Origin: Henckelia pumila
Lineage: Eukaryota; Streptophyta; Magnoliopsida; Lamiales; Gesneriaceae
Assembly (NCBI RefSeq): GCF_033568475.1
Contig: NW_027331831.1
Location: 7,440,001 to 7,504,000 of the forward strand
Direction: 5' to 3'
Length of the DNA: 64,000 nucleotides
Shown here piece by piece: positions 6,640 to 61,747 of this stretch. The notes beneath the pieces were generated by a model. That model did no database searches. It was not told the DNA's origin and saw only the letters and a program-made list of their open reading frames with translations. The number at the start of each line of letters is the position of its first letter. Position 1 is the first letter of the stretch. The position numbers and the translations under genes were made by a program.

Positions 6640-6960
6640 TAATGTTTTTATTATGGATACATTTTATAAGATAATATATTCCTATAAAAATGAATTCTTT
6701 TTCACAAAAAAAAAAACAGAGGGAAAAAACCGCTTTCTTTTTCACTTAAAGGTAACAAGTAAAAAGTGTTGCGTTAAAAAATATTGCTAATAACACCAAA
6801 AAGCATAACGAAGGTTCTAAAAAATATGATGTCTGATAAAATGTTGAGATCAATTTTTAAGTTTAAACGGGTTTAATATGAGTTTAAACGTGAAAAATGT
6901 TTTAGATTTTGAATTGATACTTTATACACAAAAAATCTTCCATATATACTTCTTCCACCC

Positions 6961-7385
6961 TGTCACGGACTTAGCCCTTCTAAGATCACGTGCGGCCTTT
7001 GTTCCTTGACTACGCCCCTCGCGAGTACTAGCAAAGCAGCCTTTGTTGCGCAAGTGTGTGTGTAAGTGTTTGAGTAAGAACACAAGAGAGCTTGGAGAAT
7101 ACTTTGTATTGATTTCCAACTTCGTGGTTTACAAATGAGGGCTATAACCCTTTTATAGTTGAGCTCCCTACAATCTACATGATTCTAGATTCTTTCATCT
7201 ACACCAATCTAGAGTCTACTTTCTACAAGTTTCTATACAAATCATTTATATACAAGTGTATTCTAGAGAGTTCTACATAAGCCTATATCTTGAATATTGT
7301 AGAGACTTCTAGAAGATGCACAACATCTACCTTGCACCATGCTCTAGAATCTTCCGAAATGCGCAAGAAGGTGCCGGTTGTGACA
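6961..7385 (-). repeat. 3' LTR of the chromovirus
   Basis: 425 bp, TGTCAC...GTGACA; same length as its partner at 15211-15635 and 98.4% identical by manual comparison (seven substitutions, no gaps). Confidence 0.95.
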
Positions 7386-7399
7386 TTCTCCCCCACCTA
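7386..7399 (-). other. Polypurine tract of the chromovirus
   Basis: Read on the minus strand, a purine run AGGTGGGGGAGAA directly precedes the 3' LTR, the expected plus-strand primer position. Confidence 0.8.
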
Positions 7400-9181
7400 T
7401 TTGGCTGACGCCCTCGTCGCCTCAAATTGATGGAGTAGTTCTTTGAACTGCCACAAGTCATGTTTTGTTTCCCATGTTGCCTCGGACTCTGGCAATCCCT
7501 TCCATTTGATCAGATATTGAGTGCTGGGTTGCACTCCACGTCGCCGCTCAATGCGTTTGGCAAGCACCTCTTCAACATCTTTGTCAAAGGAAGTTGTTAC
7601 TACAGGAGGTGCTCGGTGAGAATCGCCTCGGCTAGTGTCTTCCTCATCTGGATAATAAGGCTTTAACATGCTCACATGGAAGACCGGATGAATCTTCAAT
7701 GTGTTGGGGAGGTCGAGACGATAGGATACCTTCCCAACCCTTGCAATTATCGTAAAGGGTCCTTCATACTTCCGGATTAGACCCTTGTGTACCCCTCGAA
7801 AGGCTTTGAATTGATGTGGCAAGAGCTTGATGAGTACTTCATCTCCGATGGAGTACTCTTGTTGCCTTCTCTTTGCATCGGCCCATTTTTTCATGCGCCG
7901 TTGGGCCTTCTCTAAGTGTACTCGCGCCAAGTCCATGTGCTCGCTCCAAGACTTAGCCATCTTTGTCGCGGCGGGGCTTTGCCCCTTGCTAAAAGATATT
8001 TGCAATGTATGCGGAGTAGTCGGTTGTTGCCCCATGACTAGCTCGAATGGGCTCTTCCCAGTGGCCTCACTTTGTTGTAAGTTGTAAGAGAATTGTGCCA
8101 CATCCATGAGCTTCGCCCAGTCTCGTTGGTTGGCACTCACAAAGTGCCTCAAGTAGCATTCCAACAAGGCATTTACCCGTTCAGTTTGGCCATCAGTTTG
8201 CGGGTGAAAGCTTGTAGAGAAATGCAGCTCCAACCCAAGGAGTTTGAAGAGTTCCGTCCAGAGTCGGCCTGTGAATCGGGGGTCCCTGTCGCTTATGATG
8301 TGTCTTGGTAACCCCCAGTACTTGACTACATTCTTGAAGAATAGCCTTGCAGCTTCCTCGGCAGTGCAATGCTTTGGGCATGGAATGAATGTTCCATACT
8401 TAGTGAATCTATCGATCACCACCATGATCGAACCAAACCCATCGGACTTTGGCAAGGCGCTAATGAAGTCCATAGTAATAGATTCCCATGGACGCTCTGC
8501 AATAGGTAGTGGCTCAAGCAGTCCCGCCGGTTGCTTTGTCACGACCTTGTCTTGTTGACAGACCAAGCATGTCTTGACATATAGTTCGACTTGGTCTCTC
8601 ATTTGCGGCCAATAGTATGATGCTTCCAACAAGGCCCTTGTGCGTTTTTGCCCTGGATGGCCAGCCCATTTGGTGTCATGGCACTCGCGGATTAGATCTT
8701 TCCTCAGATCCCCCCACTTTGGCACATAGAGTCGACGTCCCTTCGTATATAGAAGCCCATCTTCAAGCCAGAATTGCCTAGTCTTCCCTTGCTCGACAAG
8801 CTTGGCCAACTCCTTGGCCATGGGATCATGCTCCAATCCTTCTTTGATGTGTGCTGGCAGGTCACCTAAGGCAGCACTGATAGATGCCAACTCTGCTTTC
8901 CGACTTAGCGCATCGGCAACTACATTGGCTTTGACTGGCCGGTACTCAAGCACAAAGTCGAACTCGGCTAAGAAGTCTTGCCACCTCGCTTGCTTGGGAC
9001 TAAGCTTCTTCTGACTCTGAAAGTAGCTAGTGGCAATGTTATCGGTCTTGACGGAGAGCCGAGATCCTAACAAATAATGTCGCCACACCCTTAGGCAGTG
9101 GATGATGGCGGTCATCTCCTTCTCTTGTACCGTGTATCGCTTCTCCGTCTCGTTGAGCTTCCGGCTTTCATAGGCTATGGG
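7397..9181 (-). mobile_element. pol part of the chromovirus: end of RNase H, integrase, chromodomain
   Basis: One long open frame encodes, in order: the end of RNase H (VKTDN, then ANVVADALSRK), the integrase HHCC zinc domain (H..H..C..C around WAGHPGQKRTRALL and CLVCQQDK), the integrase core with the usual DDE pattern (ITMDFISALPKS, then ISDRDPRFTG, then HPQTDGQTERVN), and a C-terminal chromodomain (STQYLIKWKGLPESEATWE). The region is separated from the remainder of pol by the inserted composite element at 9187-12364. Confidence 0.9.
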
Positions 9182-9186
9182 GTGCC
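9182..9186. repeat. Target site duplication (left) of the composite insertion
   Basis: GTGCC here is repeated at 12365-12369, immediately outside the TG...CA ends of the inserted DNA. Confidence 0.85.
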
Positions 9187-11839
9187 TGAAACGACCCTAA
9201 CTCTATAATTAATAAATAAATATGCGGAAATTTTTTTTTTTTTTTACTAAATAAAATATGTACATATATGCCCATACATATATGCACAGAATAAAAAGAT
9301 TTAAAAATAAATAATTAAATAAATACTTAAATAAAAATGCATTCTTTAATAAAATAAATATCTGAGTCTACATTTAATTAAAATACTGTCATGAGGAAAT
9401 AATTAAAAACTGCATGCATTGAAAATATATAAGAGTAACATTCAAAAACCCAACCACTGAAAAATACTTAAAATAAATGTAACATGCTGGCATAAATAAA
9501 ACATGCAATGTGACTCAGACAACTATCACGGTCACGGGGTCACTGCATGTCCGCTCATACATCCTCGCCTCCGGTGGGTACAACCTCATCCTCAACGTAC
9601 TCACCTGCACCATACCAGTGTAGTGAGCCTAGAGGCCCAACATGCTAACATAACAAGGGTTTAAAATAATTTAAAACAATTAAATACTAATACATACATA
9701 TACATGAATGAGCATGCTTGAAAATATCATAACATAACATAACTTAACTTAACTTAAATAACATAATACATAAACATTGTTGAGCAATTAATTTTCTAAC
9801 ATCGCATGGTTGTATCCGTAGTGTAACCTTAAATCATACATTAAATACTGATCAGCGTGGAAACCAACGTACGTGGCGGTGACGAATCACCTCTTAAATT
9901 GGCAGTAAACTGCCCTTCAATAGTTCACATATGGGGACGAATCCCCCTTAAATTGTCACACTACTTCAACTTCCAACATAAAATATTTTATTATTGCTCA
10001 ACCTTAAACATTTAATTATGCATAAAATTATTTCATGAATGCATGTACTTAAATAAAAATGTGTGTCCTTCATATATATTTAATTTAATTTCTTACTAAC
10101 ATATAAATATTAAAATAACTTCAATGCATAAAAATAATTAAATATATAATCAGGACACATGCAAATTTCTCATGGATTGTCCTGGACTGCTGGCCCTAAC
10201 ACTCAAACCCAATTACTTAAATCTGGCCCATTAACACTGAGACTGGCCCATTAACACACTTAAGCCCAATAAAATGATTCTAAGCCCAATTAAAATAATT
10301 TAAAGCCCATAAAACATTCTAGGCCCAATAACAACTTAAACTGGCCCAATGGGCCCAAAAGCCCAAAGACTGGCCCAATAACTTTTATGGGCTCAAAAGC
10401 CCATAAAATTAATGGACTAACTTAATTAAAATTTTAAAAGCCCAAATAAAATTATTTGGGAGTCCAAATAATTTTATTTCAAATTAATTGGTCCAAAAAC
10501 CCATTAATTCATAAAATATTTTAAAAATAAAAAGACTCGAGCCCGGCCCACCAAACCCGGACGCGGACTCACTTAACCCGACCCACGACCCACTGACTTG
10601 ACCCGGACCCAAGAACCCGACCCGGACCCAGCCCTAACCCTAAACCCGAAACTCACCCTATCTCTTCTCGGCTGCGGCCGTGAGCAGCAGCCACTCCGTG
10701 GCTGCTGCCCTCCTGCTCCGGCCGCCCCTGGCCGGAGCGCCGCCGCCCAGACGTAGCCCACGTCTGGGCGGACCTGATCTGACCTGACCCCAGCCCCCAT
10801 GCAGCCTGGACCCTCGAACCCGAAGCCCTTATTCCCGAAACCCTAAACTGCGACTCCTTGGGACCCGATCGACTCTAGATGGTTTCCTGGCTCGTTTGGC
10901 TCGAGCCCCTCGAGCCATTCGGTCCAGACCCTCCTCACCCTACCTAGGACTCTGACCAGCAGCCATACCAGCCATGGTGGACCTGAAAACGTGATCATGA
11001 AGAAGGAAAACAAAGAACCTTACGCATAAACTGAAACAACCGAACCATCTTTTGAAAAACTTGAAAGTTTTTGATGCATACACAATCCACACAATATAAT
11101 ATCTGATAGGTACGAAAAAGTGGAAGAAAATCATGCCTTTCACCGAAATTGAAGAGAAAAACGTGCGTGGGACGATTCCGGGACAAAGACGACTTGCTTT
11201 GGACCTTCAAAAACGTGGCTATAGTGTTCTTCCTTAGGGCTGCTCGGTTGAGGAAGATGATGAATAGTGGGGGTGGCGGCTGAGAGTGTGAGTGATCGGT
11301 GGGTTTGGGGTAGATTAGGTTAGAGTTTTATTTTTAATTAAAATAGGTTTTAGGATAATTAAAAGTTTTAAATATAAAACCAAAAATTTTAAAACTCTAA
11401 ATAAAAATTAAAATATGATAATTTAAGTTAATCATATACAAAATACCGAAATTATAAATTTAGGAAATTTTAAAAATACTAAAAAGTCAATATTTTGGCT
11501 TATTTTGAATAAAAATGGACTCCTAAAATTATATAAAATTAAATACTAAAAATTTTGAGATAATAAAATTCAAAATAATATTTCAGGGCTTTAAAAAGGC
11601 TCATGAAATTAATTGGCTAGAAAGTTGTCATCTCGTCCGTCCACGGTCCCGTCTACGCGATAAAATAATTAAAATACTAAAAATCATAAAATCACTAATT
11701 ATGGGTTAAATACTTAAAAATAAATTAAATCATGCACAAATAATTCACATAATTATTTAATCCATAAATCTAAAATTTAAATAATTAAATATCCTAATTA
11801 TGCATGCGGATTTACGTATTTAAAATACCGGGTGTTACA
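9187..11839 (-). repeat. Long gypsy-type LTR (Tekay/Del-like), antisense component of the composite
   Basis: Read on the minus strand, this 2653-bp segment starts TGTAACACCCGG and ends AGGGTCGTTTCA, the usual form of long LTRs of plant Tekay/Del chromoviruses. It is AT-rich with a GC-rich centre (10530-10990) and a conserved island near 9520-9650 (reading GTGAGTACGTTGAGGATGAG on the minus strand). No coding region. No separate target duplication was found at its inner end, where it meets the U6 piece directly. The lineage is inferred from style. Confidence 0.65.
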
Positions 11840-11847
11840 ACATCCGA

Positions 11848-11879
<32 letters not shown>

Positions 11880-11920
11880 GGCCCCTGCGCAAGGATGACA
11901 CGCATAAATCGAGAAATGGT
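11840..11920 (+). pseudogene. U6 snRNA fragment (nucleotides 13-93 of about 102)
   Basis: The 81 bases run from ACATCCGATAAAATTGG through ATACAGAGAAGATTAGCATG (the ACAGAGA box) to AAATCGAGAAATGGT. From memory they match plant U6 over nucleotides 13-93 without a visible difference. The 5' stem-loop (nt 1-12) and the 3' tail (CCAAATTTT) are absent. No upstream sequence element or TATA box precedes it, so it is not a working pol III gene. Its last four bases (TGGT) are also the first four of the adjacent primer binding site. This is a reverse-transcribed copy of spliceosomal RNA, not a U6 locus. Confidence 0.93.
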
Positions 11921-12177
11921 ATCAAAGCCGACCTCTCTTAGTACGGTATGGTTCGGGGACGAACCAAGCGGAAGCTGGTGGGCATGTGACGCCCGGAGCT
12001 GAAGAGGCAGGGAGTGATCGCCGGTGCCAAGAGGTTGCACGGACAATGAGCGGCTCCTGGTAGGCTTCTAGGCGGAGGGAGACATGAATGAACTGATCTC
12101 GTGCCGGAATGAGAGGGGATTCTGAGAATGTGTAGGTATGGGACTACATAGTTGAGGAGGGCTTAAAAGATTTCATA
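11917..12177 (+). mobile_element. Cassandra-type TRIM: PBS and internal region
   Basis: TGGTATCAAAGCC (11917-11929) is a primer binding site for initiator tRNA-Met. It is followed by a GC-rich non-coding domain with 'gttcggggacgaacc', 'gagcggctcctgg' and 'ggaatgagaggggattctg', which I recognise as Cassandra internal sequence, and ends with the purine-rich GAGGAGGGC before the LTR. TRIMs of this kind encode no protein and rely on other elements for reverse transcription and integration. The LTR boundary at 12178 is approximate. Confidence 0.75.
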
Positions 12178-12364
12178 TGTACTGCTCATATCAAGAAGGT
12201 GCATCTTCTTTTCGGAAGCTCATCACATAAGAACTCCAAAGTTAAGCGTGCTTGACTTGGGGCAATTATAGAATGGGTGACCCCTTGGGAAGTTTCTCAG
12301 GGTGCGTGTGAGTGAGGACATAAGCACGCTGAAAAGACCCGTCTTGATACAGTGGGTCGTTACA
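12178..12364 (+). repeat. Cassandra-type LTR carrying a 5S rRNA-like promoter
   Basis: From a TG at 12178 to TTACA at 12364. It contains a 5S rRNA-like segment at about 12198-12308: the box A region (GAACTCCAAAGTTAAGCGTG) and the box C region (ATGGGTGACCCCTTGGGAAG) are clear, with the stem end GGGTGCGTG. Cassandra elements are defined by such pol III-transcribable 5S sequence in their LTR. Its start is inferred, since no partner LTR is available to compare. Confidence 0.75.
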
Positions 12365-12369
12365 GTGCC

Positions 12370-15172
12370 CTTCTTGCATTAGAACTCCCCCAATAGCAAA
12401 ATCAGAAGCATCTGTGTGCACTTCAAACTCTTTGCCAAAGTCTGGCAAAGCTAGGACAGGTTCCTTGCTTACCGCTGCCTTTAAGTCATCAAAGGCTTTG
12501 GCACATGCGTCCGACCATCCCCATGGCCGGTTCTTCTTAAGAAGATCCTTCAGCGGTGCCGCTCTAGAGAAATACCCTCTTATGAACCTGCGATAGTAAT
12601 TAACTAGCCCAAGGAAAGAACGGAGTTCGGTTACCTTGGTTGGCGATTCCCAATCCATGATGGCACGAACCTTGCTTTCGTCCATCTTGAGCTTCTCATG
12701 CTCAATAGTGTGCCCCAAAAATTGAACCGTCTCTTGCGCGAAAGAACACTTTTCCTTCTTCACATAGAGCTCGTTCTCTCGTAAGACTTGGAACACTGTT
12801 TGGAGGTGTTGGGCATGCTCCTCCAATGTGTAGCTATAGATGACTATGTCATCCAAGTACACCACCATGAACTTGTCAAGATAAGGGTGGAAGATCTTGT
12901 TCATGAGTGTACAGAATGTTGTCGGGGCATTGGTTAGGCCAAATGGCATGACGAGCCACTCAAAAGATCCATATCGAGTGGTGCATGTTGTCTTGGGCTC
13001 GTCCCCATCGGCAATTCGAACTTGATAGTACCCTTTTTGTAAATCCATCTTTGTGTAGTACTTGGCTTGACCAAGACGATCAAACAAATCAGCTATCAAT
13101 GGGATGGGGTACTTGTTCTTTATTGTTACCTTGTTAAGCGCCCGGTAGTCCACACACATCCTCAATGAGCCATCTTGCTTCTTTTGAAAAAGTACGGGAG
13201 CGCCATATGGTGCTTTAGATGGTCGGATACGTCCGGTATCCAGTAGCTCAGTGAGTTGTTTCCGAAGCTCCTCTAGCTCGGGTGGTGCCATGCGATAGGG
13301 TGCCATGGCGGGCGGCTTGGCACCGGGTTCCAACTCGATCTTGTGGTCGACTTCTCTCCGTGGTGGCAACTCCTTAGGTAATTTTGCCGGCAACACGTCT
13401 TGGTTCTCATCCAGAACCTTCTTGATGTTAGTAGGAACTTCCTCTAACAAAGGAGTGTCAAGGCCATCACCCGAGTGTAACGTGGCCAAGAACGTGGGTT
13501 CGCCTTTCTTCACTCCTTTGGCTACTTGCATAGCTGACAATTGCTTCATTGAGCTTGTCTCGGGTGGAGCACTTGTCGCTTGTATCATGCATGGAGACCC
13601 TTTCTCCATTATACACATAGAGTCTAAGTAAGGCATCGGAATAGCACTTACCTTTCTCAAGAAGTCCATGCCCAGCACAAAGTTGAAATCGTCAAGGGGT
13701 GCCACTGAGAGGTCCACTCGACCGTGCCACGTACCCAAGGACAGCTCAACATCCTTAGCAACTCCATGTAGTCGTCGAGCGGATGCATTCACAGTCTTGA
13801 TCCATCCCGAACCTTGAGTGACATGCAATCCCAAGCGTTTTGCTTCACTCTCAGTAATGAAGTTGTGGGTGGCTCCGGTGTCAATCATTGCCTTAGTAAG
13901 TTTGTCATTGATCTTTGCTTCCACGTACATGAGTCCCTTGCTTGATGTAGTGGTCAATGGCTTGGCTTTCAAAGCATTTAGGATTTGGACGGATCCCATG
14001 TGTTCGGCCTCCGCACCATCAACTTCACCGCCTTCAAGTATGGCCGACAAAGAACCGAGCTTTGGGCAGTTACTCATTGCATGAGGCCCTTTGCATACAA
14101 AACAACCACCTTTAGGGACAAAAGCCTTTTTCTTGTCTTCATAATCGTTGCGTTTGTCCCCGGGCCTCTTGTCGCCGGTCTTAGCTTGGAAGTAGCTCTT
14201 CTTGAACTCCTTCTTTTTTCCCCCACCTTTGCCCGAGTTGCTTACATCTTTCTTTTGCTTGAAACCATCGTTGCTACGTTGGTACTCGGACAAAGATTCG
14301 GCGGCAGCAATAGTATCATCCAAGGTTTTGAGATCTCGTCGTTGTAGCTCTTGCTTGGCCCAATGTTGTAACCCATCGGTGAAGTGGAAGATGAGATCTT
14401 CTTCATCCATCTTTGGAATTTGAAGAACAAGAGTAGTGAATTCCTTGACATATTCAGGGATTGTTGTGCGATGTTTTAGCTCCCTTAGCTTTTTACGAGC
14501 CTCATATACCACATTCTCAGGATAAAAGTGGCGCTTGAGTTCCTTTGAGAACTCTTCCCATGTATCGACTCGGCACAACCCTTTCTCTATGTCCGCATGC
14601 TTGCGACGCCACCACAACATTGCAGTATCAGTAAGATACAAAGTAGCAGTACGTACCTTGGTCGTCTCATCTTGTAATTTGAGACCTTCAAAGTAAACTT
14701 CCATTTGCCACAAGAAGTTCTCGACTTCCTTGGCATCCCTCTTTCCACCAAAGCTCATTGGCTTAGGCAACTCGATCTTAGGAGTTTTAACGGATTGGCT
14801 TCCTCCATCCATGGTAGCAACTCGTTTGCACAGCGTCACATCTTCGCGCATCCCCTCGATGCAAGCTTGGAGGGATTCCACCATCTCTTCAAGTCGAGCG
14901 ATGCGATCGTCTCGTGCTACAATTGCTTCATGGAGCCCTTAAATATCCTCCTTCACTGAGTCAAGTTCCGACAAGACATGGCCCTCCAATGTCTCCAAAG
15001 TATGCTCGGACTTCTCAACTCGTTCGGATACTTCCGCCATAACTTGCTCCCAAGTTCCTTCCCCTCGAGTCTTGCTAGCATCCCGACGCTTCTTGCCTTG
15101 GTTAGGCGCGGTATCCCTTCCGCGGTCTTTCGTCATACCAGATGAACCAGCATCTTGCCCTGCCATGATCAC
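12370..15172 (-). mobile_element. gag-pol part of the chromovirus: gag, protease, reverse transcriptase, start of RNase H
   Basis: In the element's direction: a short N-terminal gag leader, the retrotransposon gag domain (around [15 protein letters not shown] and [13 protein letters not shown]), a CCHC zinc knuckle ([13 protein letters not shown]), an aspartic protease ([12 protein letters not shown]), reverse transcriptase ([28 protein letters not shown] and the catalytic YLDDIVIYS), and the start of RNase H ([16 protein letters not shown]). The frame is open over most of its length, with about one small break near the gag start; then comes the composite insertion. Confidence 0.9.
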
Positions 15173-15196
15173 TTGCGATGAATTGAACCCAACCGG

Positions 15197-15208
15197 GCTT
15201 TGATACCA
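15197..15208 (-). other. Primer binding site of the chromovirus
   Basis: On the minus strand TGGTATCAAAGC lies two bases downstream of the 5' LTR; it is complementary to the 3' end of initiator tRNA-Met. It is the same PBS type as in the Cassandra portion at 11917. Confidence 0.85.
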
Positions 15209-15210
15209 CT

Positions 15211-15635
15211 TGTCACGGACTTAGCCCTTCTAAGATCACGTGCGGCCTTTGCTCCTTGACTACGCTCCTCGCGAGTACTAGCAAAGCAGCCTTTGTTGCG
15301 CAAGTGTGTGTGTAAGTGTTTGAGTAAGAACACAAGAGAGCTTGGAGAATACTTTGTATTGATTTCCAACTTCGTGGTTTACAAATGAGGGCTATCACCC
15401 TTTTATAGTTGAGCTCCCTACAATCTACATGATTCTAGATTCTTCCATCTACACCGATCTAGAGTCTACTTTCTACAAGTTTCTATACAAGTCATTTATA
15501 TACAAGTGTATTCTAGAGAGTTCTACATAAGCCTATATCTTGAATATTGTAGAGACTTCTAGAAGATGCACAACCTCTACCTTGCACCATGCTCTAGAAT
15601 CTTCCGAAATGCGCAAGAAGGTGCCGGTTGTGACA
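15211..15635 (-). repeat. 5' LTR of the chromovirus
   Basis: 425 bp, partner of 6961-7385. A likely TATA motif (CTATAAAAGGG on the minus strand, near 15393-15403) is present in both copies. Confidence 0.95.
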
Positions 15636-16173
15636 ACCCGCTCTAATTTTTATTAAAATTTAATTATCTTCTACTAACAAATAGGCTAAATAACACATAT
15701 ATAATAAATTTAATGGTAATGCACAATTTTTCAAAATTTTAAAAAGTACAGAAATCCCAAAATTAATATAATTTTTAATAGGGTTTACAAGCTAGACAAC
15801 ATAAAAAGTTTTTAATTATTATTCAGAACGAATAAGAGTTTTCAATGGACATAAATTTTATTTTTTTTTGAAAATAAATTAATTGTAATTTTTCAAAAGA
15901 AATCAAGTTTCATCTCGATTAAGAAACGTGTAGTATGAACTAGAGTTTACTTCATTTTCCCCTGTTTTTAACAGAATCGTAGCGTTTGAATCTCGTTTCA
16001 CCTTCAATCCAGATTTTTAGAACATTGCATGACTATAACGCGACCCTAGCAATGAAAAGACTAACAAACGCCAAGAATCGTTTTACCAAAACTGATGTGG
16101 TCTCGGGTTCATGTCACATTTGTGCGGGTAGCGTAGAGAGTTAACAGAAAAATATACGCCACCCTTGCGCATC
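15636..16173. other. AT-rich intergenic DNA, includes the 3' flank of the IRX15-like gene
   Basis: No exon is seen. About the last 100 bases before 16174 should be the 3' untranslated region of the minus-strand gene that ends there. Confidence 0.5.
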
Positions 16174-53249: not shown

Positions 53250-53955
53250 ATCTAATGACTCTAACGTGCATAAAATATTTGAACAAAGAATGCAACCTTA
53301 CAGACAATGTTTGGCTCTTATACGGGCACGCCAAAAACTACTACTTACAAAAAAATCTTGCGCGACAATTAAAATCTTAAAAAGGCAGACGAAACGTGAG
53401 TTTCGATAAAATAAACTTAGGACGAAAAATAATTTACAAGAGTTCGTGAAACTGAACATCAAATTCTCATAATGAACTAAACAACATAAAAACTTAAAAA
53501 CTTAAAATCATTAAAACTTATCATCATGAAGCCGTCAATGAAAATACTAACTCTAAAATTTTATTTAATACTGGCTTTTAAAGGTCACACATAAAATAAT
53601 GTAACAACAAAATATTAGTAAACATATGCAAAAATTTTCGCTTTAAAACGTTAGAGCTTCGAAATCAGTCGTGACATGTAATACCTTCACCTCTTAGACT
53701 CTTCAGTCTTTCCACCAAATCTTTTAATTCACTTACATCTCAAATCTAATTGTATCAATCAAGTATAGTGAGTCTAAAGACTAAAAAAGAATATGCAAAC
53801 ATAACTCGTGTATAAACTTGAAACTTTAAAGAAATGACATATCATGAACATATTAAAATAACTTATCATTTAGGAGTGATGAAATACATGCATTTGTGGC
53901 AACCGGCGTTATGAGCGCATATTTTGAAAAGGTCATCTCCGGAGCTCATCCCTTA
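53250..53955 (-). repeat. Possible long-LTR fragment (Tekay/Del-like, antisense)
   Basis: 'agtatagtgagtctaaagac..aaca.aatatgcaaacataac' near 53763-53812 resembles 'agtgtagtgagcctagaggc..aacatgctaacataac' in the long LTR at 9187-11839 (near 9618-9652). The order and orientation agree. Only this block is convincing. Confidence 0.4.
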
Positions 53956-55312
53956 ATGGATTAAGAGATTAAATTGAATTTAATTAAAAAAATTGGAAAA
54001 TGGACACGTAGGAGATCGGAGCGTCCGAACTGGGTTTGGAACATCCGATCTAGTTAGGCCATGCATTCTTGAGGTGTCAAATTTTGATCGACACGTGGTA
54101 GAGATCGAAGCATCCGATAAGGATATCAGACCGTCCGATGAGGTGGCAGAACAAGTTTCAACGAGATCGTGACACGTGGCTGGGGCCAGCAGATCGGAAA
54201 GTCCGATCTAGTGATCGGAGCGTCCGATCGTTGCCTATAAATAGGCCATCCGAGATTCACATTTTCACACCAATTTCACACTTTATCTCTCGGTTATTGG
54301 ATGTTTTAGGGGCTTCCTAGCCTTAGTTATCTAGGGGCGGGGCCTTGGCGAGGCGTCGAGAGGTCGCAGCGGAGTAGTGGTCAAGTTCTGGGCCCATCAT
54401 CTTCAAAGTGCTGACGACGGACAGAGGTATTCCTAAGTTCCCTATAAATAGTTAGGGAGTATGAAATAGAATAGTTAAGGCTTTTAGAATAATATTATGA
54501 TGCATGAGTATTTTTCATTGTAGTGCGGACTATAGTCTTGGACATAGAACTGATGTAGCTTGCGTAATAGAATTAAGGTACGAAAGTACTGTTCGAGATA
54601 ACCTGACTAAGTATGCATGTATTATGTTTTGAATTATTTATATGACATGATTTATCTGCATATATTATGACATGTTATTATGCTACATTTCATGAGCATC
54701 TTGAGCTATATCCTTGGGATATCCGGAATTAGGGTTTTGACCCTATCTTGTTAGTTGATGATTGGACATGATGATCAGTGTCAGGTCACCGGTATTTGGT
54801 TGGACACATGGACTCATGTCAGGACACCGGTATTATTTCCACTGTCGGGTATGTGAGCCACCTCTTGGGGCAACGACGCAGAGTGCTACATCACCCAGGG
54901 CCCATGTTTGATCTCGATATTCTTTACTTCATGTCTTGGTAACCCGTACACTTGCATACATGCACATATAATATTGCATACTCATACTCTCGCACTGATC
55001 GTTTTATGCTCACATCCTTGTACTATTTTTTTGACACCCTATTCCACGGGGCATGTCACAGACTTGATGGAGCAGGAGGCTTTGGGAGACCGTAGTTGCA
55101 GGATGGCAGTAGTGGTGGACTTAGGTTCCAGTGGTCTCTTCAGTGTTTTGTTTTGAAACAGTGATTTCGATTTGGTTGTATAACTTTAGTATGTACATAT
55201 TCCTTTCCTTGGGAATTGTATTTTGTTATGTTTTTCGCTGTTTGATTCTGATCTCTGTTTATTTAAGTTATAATGCATGCTTTAGTAGGTGATCACGGTG
55301 CGGGTCACTATA
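53956..55312 (+). repeat. Left LTR of the Tekay/Del-like element
   Basis: Aligns with 60411-61747. A TATA motif (CCTATAAATAGG) lies at about 54234-54245. A conserved island with 'gacttgatgga.ca.ga.gct' lies near 55063. Confidence 0.8.
54024..54232. repeat. Array of GATCGGA...TCCGATC half-palindromes in the LTR
   Basis: Variants of GATCGGAGCGTCCGATC recur about six times just upstream of the TATA motif (near 54024, 54044, 54105, 54126, 54193, 54214). The partner LTR at 60469-60665 has the same kind of array. Confidence 0.85.
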
Positions 55313-56031
55313 TTGATGGTATCAGAGCATGCATAGAAATCTTGGGATCTAGATTTTGCATTGGGATTAACCTTTTAATCATCGTGTAGATGACGGGATA
55401 TAATGATGATAGTAGCCATGGTACGTGGGTGGACGCTGGGGCATTGCATACGATCGCGAACATCATCGCCATGATGATCGTAGATGCTTCAGTATGCATC
55501 GATTATGCAGATATGTCCTAAGTCGTTGGCTGGAGGTGAGTATTCGGAAGATGCAGAGAACATGCTAGAATGCATGGAGAACTATTTTCGAGAATTTAAT
55601 TGCACAAAGGAGAAAAATATGGAGACAATCAGTGTTTTGGTTGATTGGACTGCTAGGAAATGGTGGATATCTACGTCTGCGCCTATCATTTGAGCACGAG
55701 GAGTTGTTACCTTGGCAGATTTTCGCACATCTTTCCATAATTTGTATTTTTCTCCAGCACTCCGACAGGCAAAGGCCAGTGAATTGCTGAGTTTGAAGCA
55801 AGGCTCGATGTCAATTGACGAATACCAGCATAAGTTCTTAGATCTGTTGCCTTATTGTCCTCAGATTTATGACAACACTAAGGCAAAGTATAATCTATTT
55901 CTCCAGGGTTAATCCGAAAATCTATGACAGAGTAGCTGTGGGCGATGACATGACTTACGAGAGATTGGTTAGTCTATGTCTCCAGGCAGAGGACAACATT
56001 CGTTGTAACAGGTTTTTTCCTTTGTCTAGAC

Positions 56032-60357: not shown

Positions 60358-61747
60358 TGTAGTAGTCCGATTCAATTTTACAATATTAATTGGCTTATTA
60401 TGACTAAGAAATGGATTAAGGGATTAAATTGGATTTAATTAAAGAAAATTAGAAATTGAATCGGAAGAGATCGGAGTGTCCGAACTGGGTTCGGAACGTC
60501 CAATCTAGTTAGGCCATGCATTCCTGAGGTATCAAATTTTGATCGACATGTGGCAGAGATCGGAGCGTCCGATCAGGAGATCGAACCGTACGATGAGGTG
60601 GCACAACAAGTGTCAATGAGATCATGACACGTGGCTGGGGCAAGCAGATCAGAGCGTCCGATCGTTGCCTATAAATAGGCCATCCGAGATTCACATTTTC
60701 ACATCAATTTCACACTTTTACTCTCGGTTCTTGGATGTTTTAGGGGCTTCCTAGCCTTAGTTATCGAGGGGCGGGGCCTTGACAAGGCGTCCAGAGGAGT
60801 AGTGGCCATGTTCTGGGGCCATCATATTCAAAAGATTGACGACGGACGGAGGTATTCCTATGTTCCCTATAAATAGTTAGAGACTATAAAATAGCTTAGT
60901 TAAGACTTTTAGAATAATATTATGATACAAGAGTATTTTTCATTGTAGTGCGGACTATAGGCTTGGACATAGAATTAGTGTAGCTTGCCTAGTAGAATTA
61001 AGGTACGAAAGTACTGTTCGAGATACCCTGACTGAGTATGCATGTATTATGTGTTCCATTGTTTATATGACATGATTTATCTGCATATATTATGACATGT
61101 TATTATGTTGCATTTCATGAGCATCTTGAGCTATATCCTTGGAATATCCGGAATTAGGTTATTGACCCTATCTTGTTAGTGGATGGTTGGACATGATGAT
61201 CAGTGTCAGGTCATGGGTATTTGGTTGGACACATAGACTCATGTAAGGACACCGACATTATTTCCACTGTCGGGTATGTGAGCCACCACCTGGGATAACG
61301 GCGCAGAGTTTTACATTACCCAAGGCCCATGTTTGATCTCGATATTTATGACCTCGTGTCTTGGTAACCCGTACACTTGCATACATGCACATATAATATT
61401 TTATACTCATACTCTCGTACTTAGCGTTTTATGCTCACGTCCTCGTACAAATTTTTGGACACCCTATTCCACAGGGCAGGTCTCAGACTTGATGGATCAT
61501 GATGCTCTGGGAGACCGTAGTTGCAGGATGACAACAGTGGTGGACTTAGGTTCCAGTGGGGTTTTCAGTGTTGTGTTTTGATACAATGATTTTGATTTGG
61601 TTGTATAACTTTAGTATTTACAAATTCCTTTCCTTGGGATTGTATTTGGTTATGTTTTCCGCTGTTTAATTCTGATATCTGTTTATTTAAGTTATAATGC
61701 CTGCTTAAGTTCTTGATTAGTAGGTGATCACGGTGCGGGTCACTATA
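60358..61747 (+). repeat. Right LTR of the Tekay/Del-like element
   Basis: Starts TGTAGTAGTCC directly after a purine-rich tract (AGTAGGGGGATAA) and ends GGGTCACTATA. About 1390 bp. Confidence 0.85.

Follow-up and report, generated by a model that had tools for sequence, protein, structure and literature searches.

In the genome of Henckelia pumila, Cassandra elements without a 5′ LTR are joined, at the edge of their primer binding site (PBS), to X-group gypsy sequence, in some cases through a piece of U6 snRNA sequence, and each of the five composites that were traced to both ends entered the genome as a single molecule. One of them occupies positions 9187-12364 of the window, the whole stretch of 64,000 nucleotides analysed here (Table 1), and lies inside the RNase H region of a minus-strand gypsy element. 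An earlier note on this DNA had claimed a single GTGCC duplication outside TG...CA ends, which was borne out: GTGCC flanks TG (9187) and CA (12364) directly on both outer sides, and excision in silico of the insert and one GTGCC leaves the RNase H frame of the host open, with no stop across 395 joined bases. The composite must be younger than its host. The host itself is a young element, judged by the likeness of its LTRs (7 of 425 bases differ); it has stop-to-stop frames of 890 and 599 codons and gag, protease, RT, RNase H, integrase and chromodomain domains. CACCC and ACCCG adjoin its LTRs (window 6956-15640), and there is no perfect 5-bp duplication. A further LTR-like pair in the window (53955-55312 and 60410-61747) is 87.6% alike, with an iMet-type PBS at 55317 after the first member.

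Table 1. Features of the composite insertion and of its host element in the window
Feature	Positions	Strand	Remarks
Target-site duplication GTGCC, left copy	9182..9186	.	
Gypsy family X LTR, 2653 bp, antisense to Cassandra	9187..11839	-	Ends read directly; orientation from PBS/PPT of L010 and PPT beside X LTR of L108
U6 snRNA, nt 13-93	11840..11920	+	Rfam match; 0/81 differences from own-genome U6 gene L041
AAATGGT common to U6 and Cassandra	11914..11920	+	
Cassandra primer binding site (PBS) TGGTATCAAAGC	11917..11928	+	
Cassandra internal region, PBS included	11915..11984	+	
Cassandra 3′ LTR, 380 bp	11985..12364	+	5S-like region 12197-12310 within
Target-site duplication GTGCC, right copy	12365..12369	.	
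Host Ty3/gypsy element with chromodomain	6961..15635	-	LTRs 6961-7385 and 15211-15635; RNase H broken by insertion

The left part of the composite had been read in the earlier note as a 2.65-kb LTR in antisense. This reading holds, because the related element at locus L010 has a correctly positioned PBS and PPT on the strand that shows its LTR as TGTAACACCC...CGTTTCA. In the window, the U5 end of the X LTR (TGAAACGACCC, read on the plus strand) is outermost and its U3 end (GTGTTACA, likewise read on the plus strand) abuts U6. The X family is abundant in the genome, with 1756 first-look X-group LTR candidates, and was seen here as LTR ends, many of them in pairs 6.5-7.5 kb apart. Five X LTR ends about 6.85 kb apart at G000 C4:133955116-133982715 suggest a tandem X array. 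In the X-related element of L010 (4595-10600, with L037), two 2.87-kb LTRs of 99.58% likeness enclose just about 265 bp of internal sequence; it is a non-autonomous relative with very long LTRs. The X-group partner at L011 has gag, RT/RNase H, integrase zinc-binding, SH3 and chromodomain sequences in four of the six separate broken frames searched.

U6 was also correctly placed by the earlier note between the two LTR sources, and, at 84.8 bits, is the only Rfam match in the window to reach its gathering score. It is not a complete gene: the first 12 nt (5′ hairpin), the last 12 nt and the T run are missing. The U6 genes of the same genome (e.g., L041 and L043) have, by eye, a TATA-like box and a T run. 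The seven nucleotides AAATGGT, which U6 has in common with Cassandra, comprise the final A of the absent Cassandra 5′ LTR, the AA spacer and the first four bases of the PBS. The inner junctions, given earlier as 11830-11850 and 11910-11930, can be corrected to 11839/11840 and to a point within 11914-11920.

The PBS of the right part differs by one change from the Cassandra TGGTATCAGAGC, and the same variant is found in ordinary copies of the genome; we take it to be of the initiator-Met tRNA type. In five ordinary Cassandras of the same genome, the LTRs are about 380 bp long (self-match lengths 376-382) and an AA spacer stands ahead of the PBS, from which the limits of the LTR and internal part in Table 1 were set. 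The 5S-like stretch scores 27.0 bits, under the Rfam gathering score of 38, and AGTTAAGCGTGC and AGAATGGGTGACC in the LTR fit by eye the box A and box C motifs published for Cassandra (PMC7215508). The claim that the right part is a Cassandra LTR therefore stands for Cassandra and falls for an LTR alone, since an internal region and a 3′ LTR are both present. The 5′ LTR is absent from the composite, and none was seen at the left boundary of the insert; ordinary copies with two LTRs exist in the genome.

Searches of the genome (884,658,702 bases in 133 contigs) used three queries: the joint region, a pattern representing the U6-Cassandra joint, and the U6 model of Rfam. The U6 model gave at least 22 matches, at least 20 of them over the cut-off, with 48 candidates scored. 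U6 and Cassandra are joined at no fewer than four loci, namely the window, L009 (C2), L010 (C4) and L011 (C3). A one-mismatch pattern match at C2:29052502 (L039) has no likeness to the insert and was dropped from the count. In all four loci, U6 has the same orientation and the same AAATGGT junction with Cassandra, and an X-group gypsy part lies on its 5′ side. The 5′ limit of U6 varies, from nt 13 in the window to about nt 7 in L009, about nt 4 in L010 and nt 1 in L011, where U6 shows 4 differences from L041 over 93 nucleotides. If U6 RNA was copied from its 3′ side, just such a combination of a fixed 3′ limit and a ragged 5′ limit would be expected. Three related U6 copies on C3 (L056, L057 and L059, at 36 Mb) also leave U6 after AAATGGT, the same point of U6 as in the Cassandra joint, and continue as GACATAAAG.

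The fifth composite, L108, is an antisense two-LTR X element joined straight to the Cassandra PBS edge without U6. All five carry one 5-bp duplication each, at their outermost TG...CA ends only: GTGCC in the window, GGTTC in L009, TTAGT in L010 (with L037), TCAAT in L011 (with L038) and ATCTA in L108/L123. These five loci, with their distinct outer duplications, support the reading of the earlier note that the chimera already existed when it integrated, as one molecule. The composites of the window, L009, L011 and L108 have a U5 end on either outer side, and L010 has one U3 and one U5 end. The Cassandra side of the joint is nearly constant: its first base is the final one of the absent LTR, one of the AA spacer or the A ahead of TGG. 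On the partner side, the X U3 end is complete in the window and lacks about 6 nt in L009; the joint of L011 lies inside gag. L010 joins by a U5 end plus AT, which in that element separates the LTR from the PBS, and L108 by a U3 end plus the AT adjoining the PPT of that element (L124). Integrase normally removes such terminal dinucleotides before insertion, so the ends in L010 and L108 look as if they were joined before processing, and the AT in these two of the five joints looks like an untrimmed dinucleotide of gypsy cDNA; its chance odds are 1 in 16 at each of the two loci, and the window, L009 and L011 are without it. L108 has the topology of the window composite with a two-LTR X element, and the single X LTR of the window may therefore result from later recombination between LTRs.

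We further examined places in the genome where the Cassandra PBS is followed by the start of the internal region. At 592 of them the nucleotide at -4 is C, the state of ordinary copies, and at 79 it is not. Three of the 79 are loci with U6 (a base change keeps L009 out of the set), and 60 of the other 76 were examined. Thirty-four of the 60 count as having a Cassandra 5′ LTR (33 by script and L070 by eye), in some cases shortened, as in L065. Among the remaining 26, six were set aside: L087, L101 and L120, in which the end of the Cassandra LTR lies about 30 nt farther upstream; L109, which has a partial 5′ LTR and matching AATTC flanks; and L073 and L074. This leaves 20 loci judged to be without a 5′ LTR. 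No small RNA at Rfam gathering score was found in 17 of these 20 plus L073, L074 and L109, so U6 is the only small RNA seen at the PBS edge in the sequences read.

Eight of the 20 loci (L062, L071, L083, L088, L095, L108, L113 and L114) follow X-group LTR sequence. In those other than L108, which is the non-U6 locus checked at both outer ends, Cassandra similarly starts without U6 at 0-3 nt from the PBS edge. The X-group match comes to 5 nt or less from the PBS in five of the eight, to within 7 nt in L071 (via likeness to L088), and stops 43 nt short in L113 and L114. Within 480 bases upstream of the PBS, X-group LTR sequence occurs at 8 of the 20 loci judged to lack a 5′ LTR versus 2 of 34 ordinary left flanks of equal length (P = 0.003, Fisher's exact test), in a rough, post hoc comparison with classes drawn by the analyst and with near-copies, L113 and L114, as two of the eight. 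When any X-group match is counted, internal region included, the proportions are 8 of 20 and 7 of 34 (P = 0.21, not significant). The four U6 loci, having prompted the search, are not part of these counts. The LTR comparison is suggestive of a preference for X-group LTRs at the PBS edge; X-group LTRs are abundant, and the choice of partner may reflect this abundance.

Other loci of this set have different neighbors. In L063, L075, L102, L104 and L116, the Cassandra internal part follows a common LTR-like end GGGGCGTGACA, and in L081, L098, L099 and L117 it follows another, GGGTCACTACA / GGGTCACTACATTTT. The Cassandra parts in the GGGGCGTGACA and GGGTCACTACATTTT groups were possibly captured and then copied on within those elements. 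L066, L089 and L106 each stand alone. At L062, a unit of Cassandra PBS, internal part and LTR is bordered on one side by a G11-type gypsy LTR and on the other by a PBS-like stretch, which by eye resembles the start of the X10 internal region; such an arrangement would be expected from two exchanges at the PBS edge between Cassandra and gypsy strands.

One ancestral U6-Cassandra fusion, arising for example when Cassandra recombined into a U6 gene and was co-transcribed, could have been followed by separate joining of X-group cDNA. The identity of the U6-Cassandra joint in all four loci would fit such an origin, as would the retention of U6 from nt 1 in L011, and an AU test did not reject a single clade (P = 0.156). 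We regard it as unlikely, because every U6-Cassandra locus among the matches listed has an X-group partner, and because the U6 loci do not cluster in a tree of the Cassandra parts (51 rows): they require four changes, are united in 0% of 200 bootstrap trees and have, in all four cases, a Cassandra without U6 as the nearest row. Support is low throughout this tree (5 of 48 inner branches starred), and it did not settle between one and several origins. Furthermore, Cassandras without U6 likewise begin at the PBS edge, so the U6-Cassandra joint needs no common ancestor. Repeated formation of this joint is favored, although not proven.

It could also be proposed that an X-U6-Cassandra chimera transposes as a family, given that the window and L009 agree in order and orientation and differ in their duplications. 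The earlier note took multiple loci with different duplications as the mark of such a family. A search with the inner junctions did find such loci; the transposing family did not hold, because the partner joints differ. Between the window and L009, the X-U6 joints are not the same (GTGTTACA/ACATCC versus CCGGGT/CGGGGACATCC) and the likeness of the X parts, compared piece by piece, is 74-92%; the topologies of L010 and L011 are different again. Five different partner joints argue for repeated formation of the chimera and not for one transposing chimera, and we consider the latter very improbable. Sequential insertion, first of X (GTGCC) and then of U6-Cassandra at its very end (duplication TTACA), could draw on the GTTACA at 11834-11839 and 12359-12364 and is still less credible, since GTTACA is the usual Cassandra LTR end in the copies examined, no such inner repeat is present at the L009, L010 and L011 joints, and the five composites have outer duplications only.

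Repeated formation of the chimera before integration could be explained by a failed strand transfer, sometimes followed by extension on U6, then by joining to gypsy cDNA and integration of the whole, a course of events that we consider probable. From the positions, orientation and microhomology of the joints, we infer a cDNA stalled at the PBS, its extension on U6 RNA, its joining to gypsy cDNA and a location in a particle. Within a gypsy particle, the minus-strand cDNA of Cassandra would reach the PBS and fail to pair with its own plus-strand strong-stop DNA in the second strand transfer. Its 3′ end (...ACCATTT) could instead pair with AAAUGGU near the 3′ end of U6 snRNA, and reverse transcriptase would then, in some cases only, copy U6 to or near its 5′ end. 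The resulting single-LTR Cassandra cDNA would have one end unusable by integrase. That LTR-less end would be joined to an end of X-group gypsy cDNA, which provides the missing LTR terminus, by end joining or by end-to-end template switching, and integrase would insert the entire composite, generating a 5-bp duplication. For the window composite and L009, the partner may have been a single LTR when it was joined, or may have been reduced to one afterwards. More tentatively, failure of the second strand transfer could be a recurrent event in which U6 acts as a stray acceptor through the match of its AAAUGGU to the LTR/PBS edge and cDNA of the particle-forming chromovirus rescues the dead-end product for integration, and the partners would then name the autonomous helper of Cassandra.

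Composites formed before integration record which cDNAs met. They also record failure of strand transfer in plant LTR elements and represent a route by which a copy of a host snRNA enters the genome with LTR-type target duplications. A 2024 paper states that nothing points to an autonomous family mobilizing Cassandra (PMC10886601). X-group gypsy is the partner in all five composites traced to both ends and is a candidate helper, which makes the question of the helper testable by particle sequencing.

No description of a Cassandra-U6-gypsy structure was found in the titles and abstract starts listed from the open-licence literature, a literature search by sequence strings gave no title on Cassandra, and the literature consulted contained no report of U6 in plant particles. 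The Cassandra PBS pattern was absent from the viral contigs and the bacterial and archaeal genomes scanned, and the whole insert from the plasmids scanned. Reshuffling of Cassandra, reportedly seen in beet, is already known, as are U6-LINE chimeras and recombination during reverse transcription.

Cassandra TRIMs have a 5S-like LTR with box A and box C and an iMet-type PBS beside the 5′ LTR, and occur in tandem arrays (PMC7215508, PMC10853983). The window part shares the 5S-like LTR, both boxes and the iMet-type PBS, and the unit repeats here too (L013). Unlike in an ordinary Cassandra, U6 and a gypsy LTR take the place of the 5′ LTR at the edge of the PBS, and the composite integrated once and whole. 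The chimeric U6-LINE retrogenes reported from mammals and Magnaporthe, which are ascribed to reverse transcription by LINEs (PMC4476161, PMC2104539), are likewise chimeric retrocopies, with template jumping named as the mechanism and U6 pseudogenes treated in the mammalian paper; our composites differ from them in having LTR termini, 5-bp duplications and U6 between the cDNAs of two LTR elements. Similarly, retroviral patch repair with packaged host RNA uses host sequence as a microhomology splint in reverse transcription (PMC4997597), whereas the event described here recurs in a plant TRIM, always at the edge of the PBS. Recombination of plant LTR elements in transposition bursts also yields chimeras between LTR elements (PMC5668417), among members of one family according to its title, whereas unrelated elements are joined here, together with U6.
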